64,000 bases of DNA from Sorex araneus (lineage: Eukaryota; Chordata; Mammalia; Eulipotyphla; Soricidae). Position numbers and translations under genes: made by a program. Shown one piece after another: positions 4,641 to 61,975 of this stretch. Positions within the stretch are counted from its first letter, which is position 1, and each line of letters opens with the position of its first letter. The notes under the pieces are model-generated. The model was not told the DNA's origin, made no database searches, and saw only the letters and a program-made list of their open reading frames with translations. The stretch is taken from assembly GCF_027595985.1 (NCBI RefSeq), contig NC_073302.1, positions 164,407,951 to 164,471,950 on the forward strand, given 5' to 3'.

Positions 4641-4813
4641 TTTTTTGTTTATTTTGGGGCCACATCTAGCAATGCTCAGGAGTTACTCCTGGGTCTGCAC
4701 TCGAGAATTATTCCTGGGGGTGCTTGGGGGACCATATGGGATGCCAAGGATTGAACCCAAGTCGGCCGTGTGCAAGGCAAATGCCCTATCCACTGTACTA
4801 TCTCTCCAGCCCA
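4641..4813 (-). mobile_element. A-tailed SINE
   Basis: Full-length reverse-strand copy from ggctggagagatagtac to the T-run that is its A tail. The 8-mer tcataata occurs at 4633-4640 and 4818-4825 as a short target-site duplication. Confidence 0.88.
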
Positions 4814-6266: not shown

Positions 6267-6460
6267 TTTTATTTATTTATTTATTTATTTAGGCTTTTTA
6301 GATTACACCCAGCAATTCTCAGGGGTTACTCCTTGCTCCGCACCCAGGAATTACTCCTAGCAGTGCCCAGGAGACCATATGGGATACCAGGGACCGAACC
6401 CTGGTCAGCTGCTTGAAAGGCAAATGTAATACCTGCTGTACTATTGCTCTGGCCCCCTAA
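6267..6460 (-). mobile_element. A-tailed SINE with (TTTA)n tail
   Basis: Reverse-strand SINE: its tail is the atttattt run, and its head (ccagagcaatagtacagcag as read on the minus strand) lies near 6455. Possible 9-bp AT-rich duplication aaaatttta (6263-6271 and 6465-6473), overlapping the tail and so weak evidence. Confidence 0.8.
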
Positions 6461-7602: not shown

Positions 7603-8095
7603 TGATTAATTTTATGAATACTTATATGCTAGTTGGACAAGGAGAGGAGAAACACACCCATGGGATTCCGCTCTTGGGCGGGTGTCCTGCTGAAAAAGTG
7701 TCTGTCCTAGAAGAAGCACCCCCTGAGGGAAAGAACTTTACCCCTATTGATTGTGACTACACCTATGTGTAAGCCCCAACTCCTCATTTTGGGGGATTTA
7801 CTAGGCTGAAAGAGTGGGCCGTCGAGTCCCAGTGCCAGATCTGGAGAAGCCAGTTCCATATCCAGATTCAGAGGAGAAAGAGAATGAAGTAGCATGGGGG
7901 AGGAAGAAGCAGGAGGAGAATCAGAGGAGAATGGAGATGGAATGGAATAAACTGCAACTGAGACTAACCGGTCTGGCTCCGTTCCTTCCTTCGCCTGCCT
8001 CGTCATCACCATCAACCTCCCCGGGACTGGGAAAGTGGCATGGCCCCCTCGCCCGCTCCCTTTTCTTTTATGTGTTTTTACACAATTGAACAAAG
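7603..8095. other. GC-richer block of unknown origin
   Basis: This block differs in composition from its AT-rich flanks. It carries opposing frames of 91 (+, 7814-8089) and 130 (-, 7707-8099) codons that overlap each other, so at most one could be real. The plus frame has an acidic/basic EEKENE...RKKQEEN stretch that could be a coiled coil. I recognise no family. It may be the internal part of the same insertion as 7184-7602 or an old retroviral remnant. Confidence 0.3.
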
Positions 8096-9311: not shown

Positions 9312-9564
9312 GCACTGTAGCACTCTAGCACTGTCCTCACATTGTTCATCCATTTGCTTGAGCGGGCACCAGTAATGCCTCCATTGTGAGACTTGTTACT
9401 GTTTTTGGCATATCGAATACGCCACAGGTAGCTTGCCAGGCTTTGTTGTGCGGACAGGATACTCTCGGTAGCTTGCTGAGCTCTTTGAGAGGAATGGAGG
9501 AATTGAAGCGGGGTTGGCTGCATGCAAGGCAAATGCCCTACCTGCTGTGCTATCGCTCCAGTCC
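9312..9564 (-). mobile_element. RTE-tailed tRNA-derived SINE
   Basis: Reverse-strand copy with head ggactggagcgatagcacag, the cggagagcc / agctacc / gtatcc body, gccaaaaacagtaac, and the 3' block ctcaagcaaatggatgaac plus a tail of ctagagtgctacagtg-like 9-mers. The 9-mer gatatagta flanks it (9303-9311, 9567-9575). Confidence 0.88.
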
Positions 9565-10349: not shown

Positions 10350-11024
10350 ATTTAAATTTAAAGATACACAGCAAGATAACAACAAAGACTGTACAATAAG
10401 AGAGTTGGTGCACAAAACTGACTTTGGGTTTTTTGGGGGGACTTGAAAAGGACGACCCTTGGGGATCTTGGGAGAGGGGGTGGGTACCTTGCAAGAAGGG
10501 TGTGTTGTTGAAATGATGAGCATGTGAAATCCTCATTAACAATATTGCTGATCACAGTAACTTAATCAATTAAAATAAGAATAAGTTTTAAGCATACATA
10601 GTTAAATTTATTAGATTATAAAATAAGTGAGAAAAATGCAAAGGCAGAGAGGAAAATATACCATACTAGCTAAAAAATGGTTAGACAATACAAGAAATAA
10701 GAATGATAATCTATGCCAAACATAGTAGTGAAAGTATATTATGCAGTTGATTAGAACAGGAGAAATTACATTTAATGAGAAAGGAAAGACTATAATAAAA
10801 ACCTTCCTAATTCTGATCTTATTTACATTTTATATTAACAAACCTCAACCAGTTTCAAATTTAAGTACTCTGAAGTTAAAGGTATGTTGAAGGTTCTTTA
10901 CTGAAATAAAGGAATCAATTGTACATCTTTTCTAAAGTATAGAATACACTGGAATATTTGGAGCAACAATGACAATGATTCATATAACTACCCATGTAAA
11001 TTTTAGAGAATTCACATTAAGATG
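10350..11024. other. No recognised gene or repeat
   Basis: AT-rich sequence with one G-rich stretch (10,425-10,500); nothing further supported. Confidence 0.45.
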
Positions 11025-11037
11025 AAAAGGTATGCTT

Positions 11038-11966
11038 CACAGAGACTGGCACACATTCAAAAGAACAAAAACAACCGCTGTTGGCATGGATGTGGGGAGA
11101 AAGGGACCCTCCTACACTGCTGGTGGGAATGCCGACTGGTTCAGTCCTTTTGGAAAACAGTATGGTCGCTTCTCAAAAAATTAGAAATTGAGCTTCCATT
11201 TGACCCAGCAATACCACTCCTGGGAATATATCCCGGAGAGGTAAAAAAGTATAGTCGAAATGACATCTGCACTCGAATGTTCATTGCAGCACTGTTTAAG
11301 ATAGCCAGAATCTGGAAAAAAAAAAACCCAAGTGCCCGAGAACAGATGACTGGTTAAAGAAACTTTTGTACATCTACACAACGGAATACTATGCAGCTGT
11401 TAGAAAGGATGAAGTCATGACCTTTGCATATAAGTGGATCAACATGGAAAGTATCATGCTAAGTGAAATGAGTCAGAAAGAGAGAGACACACATAGAAAG
11501 ATTGCACTCATCTGTGGAATATAAAATAACAGAGTAGGAGATTAACACCCAAGAATAGTAGAGATAAGTACCAGGAGGTTGGCTCCAAGGCTTGGAAGCT
11601 GGCCTCATAAGCTGGAGGAAGGGGCAGCTCAGATAGAGAACAGAATACCAGGTAAAGTGTGGTTTGAGGACCCACACGGGATAGGAGATGCACGCTGAAA
11701 ATAGACTATAGACCAAACATGATGCCACTCAGTGCCTCTATTGCAAACCACAACATCCCAAAAAAGAGAGAGAACAAAAGAAAATGCCCTGCCACAGAGG
11801 TAGGGTGGGGTGAGGGGGTGGGAGGGATACTGGGAAAATTGGTGGAGGGGACTGGGCACTAGTGGAGGGATGTAAACAAAATGCAAACATGAAAGTTCAC
11901 AAGTTTGTAACTGTACCTCATGGTGATTCACAAATAAAAATTAAAAAAATAAAAATAAAATAAAAT
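11038..11966 (+). mobile_element. L1 insertion, 5'-truncated, ORF2 C-terminus plus 3'UTR
   Basis: A 13-bp perfect duplication, aaaaggtatgctt, flanks the element (11,025-11,037 and 11,967-11,979) and an A-rich tail precedes the right copy. The frame at 11,022-11,357 encodes the end of L1 ORF2, including the cysteine/histidine stretch CWHGCGEKGTLLHCWWEC and the FDPAIPLLGIYP block. Endonuclease and reverse transcriptase regions are absent, so the copy is dead on arrival. An ATAAATAAA-rich tail and the tgtacctcatggtgattc terminus mark the 3' end. It is the best L1 reference in the window. Confidence 0.93.
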
Positions 11967-12961: not shown

Positions 12962-13231
12962 ATATGCCTCGCAGAGAGCCTGACAAGCTACCAAGAGTAT
13001 CCCGCCAGCACGGCAGAGTCTGGCAAGCTCCCCATGGTGTATTCAATATGCCAAAAACAATAACTATAACAGGTCTCATTCCCCTGACCCTGAAAGAAGC
13101 CTCTAATCTTTGGGAAAGACGAGTAAAAAGAGGCTGCTAAAATCTCAGGGCTGGGACAAATGGCGACATTACTGGTGCCTGCTCGAGTAAATCGATGAAC
13201 AATGGGATGACAGTGATACAGTGATACCCCA
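12962..13231 (+). mobile_element. RTE-tailed SINE, 5'-truncated, long variant
   Basis: Starts inside the body (cctcgcagagagcctgacaagc), follows the family to ggtctcat, then carries about 86 extra bases (about 13,079-13,164) absent from the other copies, and ends gctcgagtaaatcgatgaac ... gatacagtgatac. It follows directly on the tandem block at 12.2-12.95 kb. Confidence 0.8.
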
Positions 13232-13327: not shown

Positions 13328-13550
13328 CTGTCACTGCCATCCCGTTGCTCATCGATTTGTTCGAGCAGGCACCAGTATCATCTCTCATTGAGAGACTTAT
13401 TGTTACTGTCTTTGGCATATCCAATATGCACGGATAGCCTGCCAGGCTCTACTGCTCGGGCTCGATACCCTTGGTAGCTTGCCGGGCTCTCTGAGAGGGG
13501 CGGAGGAATCGAACACGGGTCAGCCATGTGAAAGGCAAACGCCTAACTGC
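13328..13550 (-). mobile_element. RTE-tailed SINE, slightly 5'-truncated
   Basis: A 12-bp duplication, tgtgaagatata, sits at 13,316-13,327 and 13,551-13,562. The tail (actgtcactgccatcccgtt on the plus strand) and body are intact. The first roughly 16 bases of the head are missing at 13,550, so the 5' end joins the target directly. Confidence 0.88.
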
Positions 13551-13562
13551 TGTGAAGATATA

Positions 13563-15600: not shown

Positions 15601-15667
15601 GTAGATATGTAGATATGTACATGTACTGGAGTGTATGTATGTGGACTGTAGATATGTATATGAACTG

Positions 15668-15914
15668 GACTGGAGCTATATCACAGCAGGTAGGGCATTT
15701 GCCTTGCACGTGGCCAATTCAGGTTTAATTCCACTGTCCCTCTCGGAGAGCCTGGAAAGCTACCAAGAGTATCCTGTCCACACGGCAGAGCCTGGCAAAC
15801 TACTCGTGGTGTATTCGATACACCAAAAACAGTAACAACAAGTCTCATAATGGAGATGCCCGCTCGAGAAAATTGATGAACATCGGGACAACAGTGCGAC
15901 AATGCAGTGCTACA
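15668..15914 (+). mobile_element. RTE-tailed SINE, full length
   Basis: Head ggactggagctatatcacag, cacgtggccaattcaggttt (B box mutated), tccctctcggagagcctgg body, gccaaaaacag-like block (ccaaaaacagtaacaac), then gctcgagaaaattgatgaac and gtgcgacaatgcagtgctac as the repeat tail. Flanking tatgtagatat-like sequence on both sides suggests a duplication but is itself repetitive. Confidence 0.88.
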
Positions 15915-15930
15915 TATGTAGATATATCAT

Positions 15931-16844
15931 CACTCGTCATCCTGTTGATCTTCTATTTGCTCGAGCGGGGGCCAGTAACATCTCCATTTGTCCCTGTCGT
16001 GTGCTAGTGTAGCTCAATGATATCTACTCACTCCAGGAACAGGAAGAGCCTCAAACCATTCATTCAGGGTTTTGACGAAGAAGTCTGACCATCTCGTTGG
16101 TGGGCAGCCACGTGGTCTTTTGACGTCCTGTGGAATCCAGTCGGTAACAGCTCTAGTCCAGTGGTCATCTCTGAATCGCATTGGGAGTCCGGTCCATTTG
16201 ATTTTGGACACCTTGCAAATGAAATAGTGTCCCTGACTCTTGACCTTCGAGGTTGGAACTCCGGATTCCTTCTCTCACTTGAGTGAAACGTGGTACTCCA
16301 AACATAGCTCATATTTCGGTACCTCCTTGGGAGACCCGAATAGCGTTCTCATCCTGTTTTCATAGGGCCCAGGTCTCTGAGGCATATATATGTGCAGGAA
16401 GAACAGTAGAGTCGAAAAGATGTACCCAGAGCTGGAGGTTCTTAGTTCTCTTAACCACTTCTTCAATGCTCTTGAAGGCATCCCACAGTGCTCTCTTCCT
16501 CCTGTGCAGTTCTGGCGCCAAGTCGTTCCTTATGTTGCGTTCTTGAAATAGGTACATATAGCTGCTACATTTGGAGATGTTTGTTCCGTTGAGTGCAAAG
16601 GGAACGTCAGGGACTAGTTCATTTTTCATGAACATTGTTTTGGTGAGATTCAGCTGCAGTCCTACCTTTCCACACTCGCGGTCAAAGTTGGCCAGCATTT
16701 GTGCCACTTGACTAAATGTTTGGTATTATGAGAACGATGTCATCAGTGAAGCAGAGGTGGTGTATTTGCCAATCATCTATCTTCACTCCCATTCCTTCCC
16801 ATTCCAGTCATGACGTTCTCGAGGGTGGCACTGAAGATATATAT
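15931..16844 (-). mobile_element. RTE-clade LINE fragment: reverse transcriptase palm to C-terminus
   Basis: A 5'-truncated RTE element. On the minus strand one frame carries LCFTDDIVLI (about 16,712-16,766), the F-x-D-D active-site motif of a reverse transcriptase. A frame change follows, then the thumb/C-terminal region (16,360-16,707) with LQLNLTKTMFMKNE, ALNGTNISKCSSYMYL, LAPELHRRKRALWDAFKSIE and HLFDSTVLPA. After further frame changes come RWSDFFVKTLNE and VPGVSRYH near 16,014-16,211. These are hallmarks of RTE proteins and look closest to nematode RTE, not to BovB, by my recollection. Several frameshifts make the copy inactive. The 3' end (left) lacks poly(A). Its partner is the RTE-tailed SINE. 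Confidence 0.88.
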
Positions 16845-16900
16845 GATATTGATATAAATATTTCTCTGAAAAATACTGTCTTGAAAATGAATTACTTAGG

Positions 16901-18329: not shown

Positions 18330-18506
18330 GGGGCCGGAGTGATAGCACAGCAGGTAGGGCGTTTGCCTTGCACGCGGCCGACCCGGGTTCGATCCCCGGC
18401 ATCCCATATGGTCCCCCAAGCACCGCCAGGAGTAATTCCTGAGTGCAAAACCAGGAGTAACCCTTGAGCATCGCCGGGTGTGACCCAAAAAGCAAAAAAA
18501 AAAAAA
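18330..18506 (+). mobile_element. A-tailed SINE, near-intact young copy
   Basis: The cleanest copy here: head ggggccggagtgatagcaca, A-box-like tagcacagcaggtagg, B-box ggttcgatccc, gcatcccatatggtccccc, gggtgtgacccaaaaagc and a pure A tail. The 9-mer tactcatca flanks it (18,320-18,328; 18,509-18,517). The head resembles a tRNA gene and would be a Pol III promoter. Confidence 0.95.
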
Positions 18507-20196: not shown

Positions 20197-21420
20197 GTGG
20201 GGGTATGGTGCCGCCAGCAGGTCAACCTATACCTGTGGGGTGAGTGCATCAGCAGCCTGATGGTGCCTTCAGGTTTCCTGATACCACAAAATTGCCGCTG
20301 TGCCTATGGCCAGACCCTAACAACTTAGGACCAAGTTTACCAAGAAATTAAATGGCCAAAAGTTAGATATGTGGGAGCCACACCCACAAACCACCTCTGG
20401 CTCAGCTATACAAGCTCGTTTATTGGCCTTATTTCAGAGACCTATAGATAAATCTCAAAAGAGATTAAAAGTCGCAGAAAATCTTGGACCTGTGCATGGC
20501 TGAACAGACCAGGGTAAATTGGAGGAGGGAGAGTTGAGCTGTGCCCATTCAAGCAGAGCCCTTGGCAGCCATTTGCTTCCAAAATCCAAAATCGCCGCCA
20601 TGCCCCCAGCTGCCATAACCCCAGCTATGCTCCACCATCTCAGGCTGGATCTCACCAAGACATAATTTGCTAAAAATTGTGTAATGTGAATCTTAGCGCA
20701 CCAACAGCCCTAACTCAGAGACACAGCAGCAAGTCCCAGAAGGCACTACAGTGACGGAGATATCTCCAGGTCCCATACTGAGCCAACTTCACTAGAGTAC
20801 CACAGATGGAGCAGCTGTGCTCTCCCCTCCTACTCCAGATGGACTCCTGGTGACCAAGAGCTTCCACAAGCAAGGTCCAGGTATTCGGGTTCCAGGACTG
20901 AATCTCCAGGCTGCATGGTAGCAGACAACCCATGTTGCCCCTCCCCAGGTCCCTGCCCACCCAGTAGACTGGCTATCATGCCAACAATTTGCCTCCAGGT
21001 GCCATTTAACGCACCAATAGCCTTGGCCCAGAGACTCCCAATTGAATCCCAAAATGGATTAGTGCAGTACAGAGATGTCTTTGGAACCCAACCATTTACA
21101 ATCTAGAAATTTGCATTTACAATCGTGGTGGTGCAAGCTCTCATGATATCCAAAATAAGCAATGGAAAATAAATTATCTAGCATCTGCCTCTGGCAGGTA
21201 GGCTTGAATGGTGGTGGGAAATTTTAAGCAAAACATAATGCCCAAAATTAGAGAGAGTGTTAGGGAAATTGTCTGCCATAGAGCCAGGGTGAGAACTGAG
21301 ATGTGGGTGGTGGAAAATGTGCACTGGTGGAGGGATGGGTGTTCCATCATTGTAAAATGGCTGAATCTCAAACATGAAAGCTTTGTAACTCTATCTCACA
21401 GTGATACAATTAAAAAAAAA
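20197..21420 (+). mobile_element. L1-tailed composite element (copy B)
   Basis: Head gccagcaggtcaacctatac, one monomer (ctcaaaagagattaaaag, aacagaccagggtaaatt, atgcccccag), then a B/C-type 3' module (gagcttccacaagcaaggtc; caattgaatcccaaaatgg; tagcatctgcctctggcagg). It ends in a complete L1 3' terminus (gtgcactggtggagggatgg ... tctcacagtgatacaatt) and A-run. No recognised protein domain. Confidence 0.75.
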
Positions 21421-21511
21421 GTAATGTGGAGTTCATGCCCAATTTAATCAGCTTAATCAATGGTTAAACAAATAGCAGTACTCCTACATTATTTTTTAAA
21501 AAAGACTTAAT

Positions 21512-23632: not shown

Positions 23633-23704
23633 GTGTTTTGTTGTGAGGAGGAGTTGTTTGGGATTAGGAGGAAAATCCAGTCCTTGTTACTGGACCTTCC
23701 TTAT

Positions 23705-23956
23705 AGGCCTGTTATAGCACTATTGTTCTGTCGTTCATCGATTTGCTTGAGCGGGCACCAGTAACGTCTCCAGTGCAAGACTTGTTGCTACTGTTTTTGA
23801 CATATTGAATATGACACGGGTAGCTTGCCAGGCTCTGCCATGCGGGCGGGATACTCTTGGTAGCTTGGCATGCTCTCCGAGAGGGACGGAGGAATCAATC
23901 CCAGGCTGGCCATGTGCAAGGCAAACACCCTACCGGCTATGCTATCACTCCAGCCC
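23705..23956 (-). mobile_element. RTE-tailed SINE, full length
   Basis: Flanked by a 14-bp duplication, tggaccttccttat (23,691-23,704 and 23,957-23,970). Reverse-strand head gggctggagtgatagcatag at 23,956, complete body, and the 3' block ctcaagcaaatcgatgaac with a degenerate repeat tail. With 18,330-18,506 it gives the clearest view of shared head and different tail. Confidence 0.93.
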
Positions 23957-23999
23957 TGGACCTTCCTTATGATCAGAATAATTCTATTTCTTGAAGAAA

Positions 24000-24666: not shown

Positions 24667-24852
24667 CAATGAGGCTGGAGCCATAGCATAGTGGGTAAGG
24701 CGCTTGCCTTGCACGCAGCCGACCTGGGTTCAATTCCCAGCATCCCGTATGGGCCTCTGAACACCACCGGGAGTTATTCCTGAGCACATGAGCCAGGAGT
24801 AACCCCTGTGCATCGCCAGATGTGACCCAAAAAGAAAAAAAGAAAACTACCC
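24667..24852 (+). mobile_element. A-tailed SINE
   Basis: Near full length: gaggctggagccatagcata, gccttgcacgcagccgacc, gggttcaattcccagcatcc, gatgtgacccaaaaag. A 12-bp duplication, acttttatgcat, flanks it (24,655-24,666; 24,853-24,864). Confidence 0.93.
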
Positions 24853-25567: not shown

Positions 25568-26085
25568 TTGTATCACTTGTCATCTTGTCATCCCGTTGAT
25601 CTTCGATTTGCTTGAGTGGGCGCCAGTAACATCTCCATTTGCCCCTGTTGCATGCTAGTGTAGCCCAATGATATCTGCTTGCTCCAGGAACAGGAAGAGC
25701 CTCAAACCGTTCATTCAGGGTTTTGACAAAGAAGTCTGACCATCTCATTGGTGGGTGGCCACGTGGTCTTTTGATGTCCCATGGAATCCTGTCAGTAACA
25801 GTTCTAGTCCAGCAGTCATCTCCAAATTGCATTATGTGTCCGGCCCATCTGATTTTTGATGCCTTGGCAAACGAGACAGCGTCCCTGATTCTTGATCGTC
25901 GACAGAGGTAGGAACTCTGGATTCCTTCTCTCACTTGATGAAATGTGATAATCCAAGCATAGCTCATATTTTGATTCCTCTTTGGGAGACCCAAATAGTG
26001 TTCTCATCCTGTTTTCATAGAGCTCAGGTCTCTGAGGTGAAGAACGGTGGAGTCGAAAAGATGTGTCCGGAGCCAGAGGTTCTTC
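25568..26085 (-). mobile_element. RTE-clade LINE fragment: C-terminal region
   Basis: A 164-codon minus frame (25,500-25,994) reads through the RTE C-terminus: QVREGIQSS, SRIRDAVSFAKASKIRWAG, WTRTVTDRIPWDIKRP, MRWSDFFVKTLNERFEALP, ending KWRCYWRPLKQIEDQRDD (25,587-25,640). The upstream part has shifted frame. The 3' end passes without an obvious 3'UTR into repeats of cacttgtat (plus strand). It sits inside an older L1, so it is the younger of the two. There is no active-site motif left. Confidence 0.9.
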
Positions 26086-56121: not shown

Positions 56122-56136
56122 TTATTAGTTTATCAG

Positions 56137-56386
56137 GGGCTAAAATGATAGCACAGTGGGTAGGAAGTTTGCCTTGCATGCGGCTGACCTGGGTTCGATT
56201 CCTCCGCCCATCTCGGAGAACCCGGCAAGCTACCAAGAGTATCTCGCCCACATGGCACAGCCTGGCAAGCTACCCGTGGCATATCCAATATGCCAAAAAC
56301 AGAAATAAGTCTCACAATGGAGATGTTACTGATGCCCACTCGAGCAAATCGATGAGTGACGGGATGACAGTGATATAGTGACAGTG
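56137..56386 (+). mobile_element. RTE-tailed SINE, full length (best forward copy)
   Basis: Head gggctaaaatgatagcacag, cttgcatgcggctgacctgg, B box gggttcgattcc, body tctcggagaacccggcaagc ... agcctggcaagctacccgtgg, atatgccaaaaacag, 3' block ctcgagcaaatcgatgag, and tail gatgacagtgatatagtgac. Flanked by attagtttatcag (56,124-56,136) and attagtgtatcag (56,387-56,399), 13 bp with one mismatch. Confidence 0.93.
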
Positions 56387-56399
56387 ATTAGTGTATCAG

Positions 56400-57608: not shown

Positions 57609-59260
57609 GCCAACAGGTCAACCTGTACTCTGCGGGGTGAGCGCATCAGCAGCCTGATGGTGCCTCCAGAATTCCTGATACCCCAAAATTGCCACTGTGC
57701 CTTTGGCTGGATCCCAACAACTGGGGACCAAGTTTACCAAGAAATTAAATGGCCAATAGTCAGGCATGTGGGAGCCATGCCGACAAACCACCTCCAGCTC
57801 ATCTATACAAGCTCATTTATTGGACTAATTCCAGAGATCCATAGATAAATCTCAAAAGAGATCAAAAGACACAGTTAATCTCAGACCTGCACATGGCTGA
57901 ACAGACCGGGGCAAATCAGAGGGGGGCAATCTGACCTGTGCCCCTACAAGCAGGGCCTCCAGCAGTAGCTTGCTTCCAAGTCCAAAATCGCCGCCATACC
58001 CCCAGCCTGTCTCCACCGTCTCAGGATGGACCTCACCAAGATATAATCTGCTGAAAATTCAGGTATGCGGGTTTTGTGACTGAAATCTCCAGGCTTTCAT
58101 GGAATTAAGGTTGGCTACCTCTCCCCACTTCCCAATACACATGGAAGCGCTGGCAGTCACCCCCACAACCCAATTCCAGCCCACCTTGTAAATTCTATTA
58201 CTGGTCTTGCTTCAGAGACCCAAAAATAAATCTCTAAAGAGATCAAAAGCCAGAGACACAGCAGTGAGTTCTGGACAACACCACAAAGCCAAAGATCTCT
58301 CTGGGCCCCATACAGAGCCTATTTCACTGGGGCATCCCAGATGGAGCAGGTGCAGTTTTTCACCTACTCCAGATGGAATCCTGGTGACCAAGAGCTTCCA
58401 CAAGCAAGGCCCAGTTATGCAGATTCTAGGACTAGATCTCCATGCCACATGGTGGCAGAGTCGCTGAGTTGTTCCTTCCTGGCAGACACACCCACAATGT
58501 GCCTGCAGGCACTGTCTTAGCGCACCAACAGCCCTGGTCCAGAAACACCCAATTGAATCCCAAGATGAATTAGTGCCCTAAAGAAATGTCTCTGGACAGT
58601 AATGTTCGGAGGCAGAGGGCAAGGGCACCTCGCCCCTCGGCGTCATGTCTTCGGTGCCGGCGGCTTGCCATCCGTCGGTTCTATCCTCAAGCGCCGGGAC
58701 ACGCTACTGCAGCGGGGCGGACGGGACGGGCTCGGCGGGTACCTCCTCCTCGGGTCCCCTAAATACGCTCCTCTTACCATTTCAGGCCCCAGGAGTCGGA
58801 GCTGTTCCACTCCCCCCCAACCCCCGCGCCTCGCAGAGCGTGGCAGCCAATAAAGACCGTTGTTGTGTACCGTGAAAATAAAAAAAAAGAAATGTCTCTG
58901 GAGCCCAAACATTTACAACCTAGGATTCCAGAAGCATGGGGCCATGGCACCCATCATATTCAAAATGAGCAATAGACAATAAATGATCTAGCATCTGCCT
59001 CTGGCAGGCAGGCTTGAATGATGGTGGGAAAATTCAAGCAAAACATAACGCCCAAAAGTAGAGAGAAAGTATTGGGGAAATTGTCTGCCATGGGGCAGGG
59101 TGAGGGCTTGTATAGGGGGGGGATATATTGGGGACACTGGTGGTGGAAAGTGTGCACTGGTGGAGGGATGGGTGTTCGATCATTGTATGGCTGAATATCG
59201 AACATGAAAGTTTTGTAATTGTATCTCACAGTGATTCAATAAAAAAGTAAATAAAATTTT
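57609..59260 (+). mobile_element. L1-tailed composite element (copy C), carrying an mRNA retrocopy
   Basis: Head gccaacaggtcaacctgtac, two monomer starts 381 bp apart (ctcaaaagagatcaaaag at 57,851; ctctaaagagatcaaaag at 58,232), then the copy-B 3' module (gagcttccacaagcaaggcc; caattgaatcccaag; tagcatctgcctctggcagg) and a complete L1 3' terminus with an A-rich tail. Interrupted at 58,597-58,885. Composite and retrocopy are separate events; the frames have no recognised domain. Confidence 0.8.
58597..58885 (+). pseudogene. Processed retrocopy of an unidentified GC-rich mRNA
   Basis: A 289-bp GC- and CpG-rich insert with a polyadenylation signal (aataaa, 58,849-58,854) about 22 bp before an A-rich tail (58,876 on), flanked by a perfect 17-bp duplication, aaagaaatgtctctgga (58,580-58,596; 58,886-58,902). 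This is the full signature of an L1-mediated mRNA copy. ATG codons at 58,602 and 58,645 open frames of 83 and 76 codons; neither gives a protein I recognise. ctcctcttaccatttcag (58,768-58,785) looks like a 3' splice site, so an intron may have been retained, or it is chance. High CpG and a perfect duplication suggest recent origin. Confidence 0.85.
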
Positions 59261-59309
59261 AAATACAGAACAATTTAAAGTTGGAAACAAACAACAAGCT
59301 ATATACCAT

Positions 59310-59606
59310 CACTTGTATCACTTGTCATCCCCTTATTCATCAATTTGCTCAAGCGGGTGCCAGTAACATCTTCATCCATCCCTGTCGCGTGCTAGTGTAG
59401 CCCAAAGGCATCTGCTCACTCCACAAAGAGCCACGAAGAACACAAAGAGCCTCAAACCATTTATTCAGGGTCTTGGTGAAGAAGTCTGACCATCTTGTAG
59501 GTGGAGGGCCACACAGTCTTTTGATGTCCTGTGGAATCCAGTCGGTAGTAGCTCTAGTCCAGTGGTCGTCTCTGAATCGCATTATGTGTCAAGCCCATCT
59601 GATTTT
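59310..59606 (-). mobile_element. RTE-clade LINE fragment with 41-bp target duplication
   Basis: Only the last roughly 100 codons remain: RFRDDHWTRATTDWIPQDIKR, RWSDFFTKTLNKWFEAL (minus strand, 59,349-59,582), then the 3' end with cacttgtatcacttgtcatc on the plus strand as the repeat tail. Direct repeats of 41 bp with one mismatch flank it (59,269-59,309 and 59,607-59,647), much longer than any L1-type duplication here. A small insertion/rearrangement lies at 59,420-59,450. Confidence 0.92.
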
Positions 59607-61852: not shown

Positions 61853-61975
61853 AGTCTGGCGAGCTACGCGTGGCATATTTGATATGCCAAAAACAGTAAC
61901 AACAAGTCTCACAATGGAGAAGTTACTGGTGCCCGCTCAAGAAAATTGATGAGCAACAGGATGATAGTGATTGTG
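61853..61975 (+). mobile_element. RTE-tailed SINE, 5'-truncated
   Basis: tctggcgagctacgcgtggc, atatgccaaaaacagtaacaac, gcccgctcaagaaaattgatg, gatgatagtgattgtg. Only the 3' half remains. Confidence 0.85.

Follow-up and report, generated by a model that had tools for sequence, protein, structure and literature searches.

One tRNA-type SINE head joined to two different LINE-type 3' parts in the genome of Sorex araneus

RESULTS

Two SINE families in the window

The stretch analyzed here (the window; 64,000 nucleotides) contains copies of two SINE families, together with pieces of a LINE (Table 1). The families are an RTE-tailed one, which we call the R family, with 5 near-full copies in the window, and an A-tailed one with 12, 4 of which are listed. 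A reading made from the sequence only had named three copies, at 56,137 (the focal copy), 23,705 and 18,330, and all three are present as it stated. Their target duplications are also as it reported: with one mismatch at the focal copy, perfect at 23,956, and AAAATATACTCATCA / AAAATGTACTCATCA at 18,330. The last base of the duplication at 23956-23970 is also the first base of the element. The 56,137 (+) and 23,956-23,705 (-) copies are 80% identical over 244 bases and so belong to one family. As expected of a tRNA-derived SINE, R copies are short, dispersed and flanked by target-site duplications. At several loci their tails are of two types, (ACAGTGAT)n and (ACAGTGCT)n, which suggest at least two R subfamilies. 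The 18,330-18,506 copy ends in GTGTGACCCAAAAAGC followed by an A run.

The window also has a match to the snoRNA SNORA57 at 58589-58704 (+) (98.5 bits; gathering score, 40) and a SNORA58-like match below the gathering score at 21379-21491. An open frame at 11007-11357 (+) looks by eye like a C-terminal fragment of L1 ORF2; its Pfam match is sub-threshold.

Table 1. SINE and LINE features of the window (positions are those of the window; the near-full A-tailed copies number 12, of which four are given)
Feature	Position	Strand	Remarks
Focal R-family (RTE-tailed) SINE, near full length	56137..56386	+	Tail of ACAGTGAT-type units
Focal copy, tRNA-type Pol III head	56137..56202	+	Common with A-tailed SINE
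Focal copy, A box	56149-56159	+	TAGCACAGTGG
Focal copy, B box	56192-56202	+	GGTTCGATTCC
Focal copy, middle	56201..56308	+	About consensus 66-176; resembles internal segment of RTE LINE 5' region
Focal copy, 3' part	56316..56386	+	About consensus 184-250; resembles RTE LINE 3' end
Focal copy, 5' target-site duplication	56124..56136	+	ATTAGTTTATCAG; TTT about 10 bases upstream
Focal copy, 3' target-site duplication	56387..56399	+	ATTAGTGTATCAG; 1 mismatch with ATTAGTTTATCAG
R-family copy	23705..23956	-	Perfect duplications ATAAGGAAGGTCCAG at 23690-23704 and 23956-23970
R-family copy, near full	9313..9564	-
R-family copy, near full, 5'-truncated inside head	13331..13554	-	Duplication TATATCTTCACA
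R-family copy, near full	15667..15909	+
R-family copy, 5'-truncated	61853..61971	+	Part of middle plus tail
A-tailed SINE (taken as Sor)	18330..18506	+	Same head; duplication AAAATATACTCATCA / AAAATGTACTCATCA
A-tailed copy	4641..4812	-
A-tailed copy	24673..24846	+
A-tailed copy	6280..6456	-
Headless RTE internal-deletion derivative (N type)	12967..13230	+	Lacks tRNA head; LINE 5'-region piece joined to 3' end with about 78 additional bases
Partner RTE LINE copy, 5'-truncated	25571..26084	-	C-terminal ORF plus 3' end
Partner RTE LINE copy, 5'-truncated	15929..16849	-
Partner RTE LINE copy, 5'-truncated	59308..59606	-	Flanking duplication of about 40 bases

Copies sampled from the genome

We searched the 2.41-Gb genome with exact patterns. 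The 38-base junction between head and RTE body was found at 161 places and the head/A-body junction at 11,313, with 0 matches to the reversed pattern in each case; the two numbers are not an abundance ratio, because the patterns differ in CpG number. A similarity search with the A-tailed consensus, which skips very common words, gave no matches, and an exact-pattern count was used for that family.

The first sample (249 kb) was made up of the window, 7 loci chosen for similarity to the focal copy and 27 chosen for similarity to a nematode protein, giving 35 loci after 4 overlapping ones had been dropped. The R copies in it were 22 near-full ones and 2 limited to head and middle. The A-tailed copies were 77 near-full, 31 partial and 8 headless ones. 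There were also 58 R-like pieces without a head (36 from the 3' end) and 3 head-only pieces, two at a locus edge. We then added 32 more copies resembling the focal copy (the remainder of 40 listed) and copies from the exact-junction search: of its 161 places the first 61 listed were taken, less one that lay near another, which left 60. The RTE tail was reached by 57 of these 60 exact-junction copies. One of the 60, at locus L085, is a chimera in which positions 1-126 (head plus RTE middle) are followed by the 3' end of the A-tailed SINE.

We also looked for further tail types behind the same head. The exact end of the head occurs at 8,050 places, and the first 100 comprised 97 that look A-type and 3 R-type, with no third tail type among them. 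Of these 100, 93 were classed as A-type solely by their next three bases (CAG or CGG; 7,335 places genome-wide), the lists being compared by eye. The other seven (six fetched, plus L075) were four A-type places with a changed base and the three R-type ones. At one R-type place (L140), the sequence departs from RTE within the middle.

The two families share a 67-base head

Head consensuses were compared between the R family (24 copies) and young A-tailed copies (22 copies). They are identical at 67/67 positions and split at position 68; position 1 of the R consensus comes from 3 copies only, and at position 11 T and C are tied in each family. In both consensuses the A box is at 14 and the B box at 57-67. 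Therefore, the shared part extends exactly to the end of the B box. The sequence-only reading had described a common head of roughly 75 bases, which is right as to the sharing and too long by the consensus. Its claim that the families diverge completely beyond the head is confirmed both by this split and by the 18,330 copy, which shares the head only.

ARAGORN called both consensuses tRNA-Ala(TGC)-like. On the raw window it called a tRNA only at 18,335, in the head of the 18,330 copy, and left the focal copy uncalled. With the Rfam tRNA model at up to E = 1, only A-tailed copies in the window were matched, and the focal copy was not.

Individual copies were then compared at the diagnostic head positions 11, 17, 33 and 65. 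Position 17 is C in 100/111 R copies and 30/34 young A-tailed copies, and T in 29/43 old A-tailed copies. Position 33 is T in 107/111 R and 29/34 young A-tailed copies, and C in 25/43 old ones; the young/old division is partly circular on the A-tailed side because it is based on distance from the young consensus. Across the four positions, R copies mostly have the young A-tailed states, which are mostly absent from old A-tailed copies (at position 65 the state was imposed by the pattern used to find 57 of these 111 R copies and was free in the other 54). The sequence-only reading would be overturned by heads that resemble each other no more than unrelated tRNA genes, or that come from different tRNAs. 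For the part of this test that sets head against head, the 67/67 identity, the Ala(TGC)-like calls and the shared young states did not refute it.

Non-CpG divergence from the consensus was 4.1-11.5% (median, 7.7%) in 15 R copies obtained with no selection for similarity to R whereas in the 77 A-tailed copies it spanned 1.4-29%, with a median of 16%. Over all 111 R copies, most of them selected, it was 1.1-11.5%. Therefore, both families include young copies, the A-tailed family also includes much older ones, and the head most likely came from the A-tailed family. Judging from the letters at the diagnostic positions, the young A-tailed lineage is the most likely source of the R-family head.

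The R body consists of two pieces of an RTE LINE

R consensus 66-176 matches the 5' region of an RTE LINE at 103/111 positions, and R consensus 184-250 matches its 3' end at 62/67. Seven bases separate the two pieces. An RTE-like 3' block had been proposed from the sequence; its derivation from an RTE LINE holds, but there are two pieces (5' region and 3' end) rather than one. In loci L032 and L024, the start of the LINE segment equivalent to the middle and the LINE 3' end are about 3 kb apart, the segment being the upstream one, and it probably belongs to the 5'UTR. We examined nine places with the middle only. LINE sequence extends upstream in eight of them and on both sides in seven. At L017 there is LINE sequence upstream, and the locus ends downstream. 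At L029 the shared upstream sequence is limited to about 27 bases, and this locus ends as well.

The tail repeat of the main LINE consensus, (ACAAGTGAT)n, differs from the (ACAGTGAT)n or (ACAGTGCT)n of the SINE. Among 36 listed 3' ends, those nearest to the SINE tail are a LINE copy (L024) and three headless derivatives, at 91-93%. The headless element in the window (N type) has counterparts at L037:6390, L036:912, L024:2011, L031:447 and L026:2969. These elements end like the RTE but have an upstream region of their own, and the N type is apparently a separate non-autonomous family.

The idea that the LINE 5' piece contains a ribozyme was dropped. When L032 2450-3050 was scanned with Rfam, allowing E values of up to 10, there were only three matches, all sub-threshold and none of them a ribozyme. 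In viral contigs, there were 0 matches to the SINE motif and 0 to a cattle-SINE motif (chosen for a comparison of the RTE 5' element with Bov-B).

The partner LINE is of nematode type

A 139-residue C-terminal peptide of one of the three window copies of the LINE matched eight proteins: four from named nematodes, one from Sorex araneus and three without a species. The Sorex araneus protein is annotated as F-box only protein 36 (FBXO36) isoform X3. Part of it resembles the RTE LINE ORF (74%, with 55% of the query covered), and this part may be an exonised fragment that entered the annotation. For the short ORFs of the LINE and of L1 in the window, Pfam found nothing above its cut-offs. Locus L020 has a 768-residue open frame, in which Pfam identified RVT_1 and whose structure matches were R2- and LINE-1-type reverse transcriptases. 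This frame matched 1,192 proteins among 7,981 candidates scored. Among the 120 listed, part of which are without a species label, the labeled ones were all from Necator, Ancylostoma, Haemonchus, Nippostrongylus or Heligmosomoides, which are strongylid nematodes. Relatives of near-full coverage among the matches listed were 69-71% identical (Necator, Ancylostoma and Haemonchus) or 74% identical (two without a species). With a Nippostrongylus protein searched against the genome, identity reached 78% and frames reached 768 residues among the matches listed. The L020 and 139-residue peptide matches refine the proposed RTE-like tail to one from an RTE of nematode type.

According to one study, an element named RTE1_Sar passed by horizontal transfer between Sorex araneus and strongylid nematodes, the worms being the probable donors (PMC6542046). 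The word "sine" has 0 occurrences in the main text of that article. Among the matches listed, the named near-full-coverage relatives of the partner LINE ORF are strongylid, as expected of RTE1_Sar, which is the best fit for the partner LINE as judged by relatives and species.

At L020, L023 and L038, the LINE 5' part is inverted relative to the 3' end, resembling 5' inversions. In the window, the duplication of about 40 bases around the LINE copy at 59308-59606 (-) far exceeds those of R SINEs (median, 12).

Target-site duplications separate the two families

Target-site duplications scoring at least 10 were found for 29/110 R copies with flanks, against 3/440 mispaired flanks, and for 21/75 A-tailed copies, against 6/300. 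Therefore, recovery is beyond chance in both families. Four runs with slightly different windows gave, for R, 11/21, 11 at a score of at least 9, 20/53 and 29/110, and for the A-tailed family, 21/74, 25 at a score of at least 9, 21/73 and 21/75. Recovery in the added exact-junction R copies was 9/57.

The duplication starts with AA in 0/29 R copies and 16/21 A-tailed copies (Fisher p, 4e-9), and an earlier pass with fewer R copies went in the same direction (0/20 and 16/21). TTT at -13 to -7 was present in 17/29 R copies and 2/21 A-tailed copies (p, 4e-4). TA at the nick did not differ between the families (12/29 and 8/21). The insertion signature reported for RTE elements is Tn-TA, with TTT about 10 bases upstream (PMC13295347).

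For the partner LINE, an earlier search for duplications was dominated by spurious matches. In the later one, 10/26 copies scored at least 10 (mispaired control, 3/78, all at 10). Two of these were discarded because they lay more than 30 bases from the LINE start, leaving 8 usable, with TTT in 5/8 and an AA start in 0/8. The duplications separate two endonucleases, one for the A-tailed and one for the RTE-tailed copies. The A-tailed copies shown end in A runs, and this, together with the AA start in 16/21, is as expected of an L1-mobilised SINE.

DISCUSSION

The central claim of the sequence-only reading was that one Pol III head has two LINE-type 3' parts. This is supported by heads identical at 67/67 positions, by an RTE body as opposed to an A tail, and by distinct target-site duplications. 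We consider it very likely that the R family is a SINE made of the head of the A-tailed SINE (taken as Sor), a 5' piece of a nematode-type RTE LINE and the 3' end of that LINE, and that it is moved by RTE and its A-tailed sister by L1. The head would be the Pol III promoter of the resident A-tailed SINE, taken up to the B box. The second piece would be an internal stretch, about 110 bases long, of the LINE 5' region, and the third the last 65-70 bases of the same LINE with a short tail repeat. Pol III would transcribe the R SINE from its head, and the RTE protein would recognize the 3' end of the R RNA. The RTE endonuclease would then nick the target DNA, where reverse transcription would be primed. 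The A-tailed sister, with the same head, would be copied by L1. For R, mobilization in trans by RTE is suggested by its anatomy and its target sites. R also has a mark of RTE-mobilised SINEs of the Bov-tA, Ped-2 and AfroSINE type, in that its 3' end is common with an RTE LINE of the same genome.

L1 mobilizes many RNAs in trans, and identical heads would also be expected if L1 moved both families and the RTE-derived body were a passenger sequence. However, the R tails as printed are RTE-type repeats and not an A run, AA starts occur in none of the 29 R duplications but in 16 of the 21 A-tailed ones, and the upstream T run is common to R copies and the partner LINE. It is therefore very improbable that L1 moves both. 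Still less credible is that the two heads were derived independently from the same tRNA gene. The Ala(TGC)-like character of both consensuses would fit such an origin, but the 67-base consensuses are identical, and at positions 11, 17, 33 and 65 R heads agree with young A-tailed copies in states that most old ones do not have.

A jump between templates during RTE reverse transcription, onto the RNA of the A-tailed SINE, is the probable origin of the hybrid. Copying would have begun at the LINE 3' end, switched to the 5' region and switched again to Sor RNA. The main rival concerns the origin of R only: an N-type derivative might have landed beside a Sor copy and captured its promoter, with no template switching. 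Headless N-type derivatives, in which a piece of the 5' region is joined to the 3' end, do exist, at 12967-13230 in the window and at five other loci. Their tails are among the nearest to the SINE tail, and the middle of the one at L037 (92%) is as near to the SINE middle as that of the nearest LINE copy. However, the other four N-type middles printed are at 77-84%, against 86-92% in six LINE copies, and the N type has about 80-90 bases that are absent from the SINE. We therefore regard promoter capture as unlikely, though a good deal less so than the alternatives above, and prefer the template jump.

The Sor SINE of shrews is said to have been described by Borodulina and Kramerov in 2001. We take the A-tailed family to be Sor because it fits the description of Sor of Sorex araneus, a T-minus SINE in the shrew genome (PMC11240701). 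The head identity of 67/67 is between R and the A-tailed consensus, and the A-tailed family is equated with Sor by description; if the two are the same, Sor and R would have the same head. The families differ in that R lacks the Sor-type body and A-rich tail, being LINE-derived after base 67 and ending in a ACAGTGAT-type repeat. R also differs from RTE1_Sar, a nematode-type RTE described as abundant in the shrew (PMC6542046), in being non-autonomous rather than an autonomous LINE.

Bov-B SINEs follow a recipe in which a promoter head is joined to a piece from inside the RTE 5' region and to the 3' end of the RTE, and the two LINE pieces of the R body, from the 5' and 3' regions, correspond to it. 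Ped-2 of the springhare, reportedly from Gogolevsky et al. in 2008, is said to have Bov-B pieces from both regions. Ped-2 (ID head, Bov-B tail) and Bov-tA are among several SINEs with an RTE tail in Table 1 of one article (PMC3747384). By those entries, Ped-2 resembles R in having a resident tRNA-type SINE head (ID) fused to RTE-clade LINE sequence and differs in that head and in having Bov-B where R has a nematode-type RTE. Similarly, Bov-tA of ruminants joins a tRNA head to an RTE-clade (Bov-B) tail, but its head is of tRNA-Glu type and its partner is Bov-B (PMC3747384). Therefore, with Ped-2 and Bov-tA as precedents, the arrangement is less unusual than the sequence-only reading had claimed. 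Bov-B itself is reported, in two articles, to have been horizontally transferred (PMC6542046 and PMC13295347). HaSE1 and HaSE2 of Helicoverpa armigera also have a common tRNA-related 5' part and one RTE tail; unlike the present case, these are in insects, and the second 3' part resembles a mariner-like element (PMC3272025). No published description of the R family was recognized in titles, abstract beginnings and passages, and Repbase, Dfam or SINEBase may list it.

Whether this amounts to a worm-acquired LINE becoming a second vehicle for a mammal's own SINE promoter, by the recipe of Bov-B SINEs, is a suggestion that we make tentatively, as a possibility somewhat short of an even chance. If that recipe has arisen independently several times, then RTE proteins probably need both RNA regions. 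In that case, the 5' piece would not be a leftover but would have a function in how RTE chooses its template, and its retention points to a possible RNA element that can be tested. The two families also provide a natural controlled comparison, with one promoter, one genome, overlapping ages and two LINE machines. With the promoter constant, target choice, tail requirement and success can be compared between the machines. The R family would be a follow-on of the transfer of a transposon between nematode and mammal, in which a native SINE appears to use the machinery of the newcomer, as with Bov-B in ruminants.
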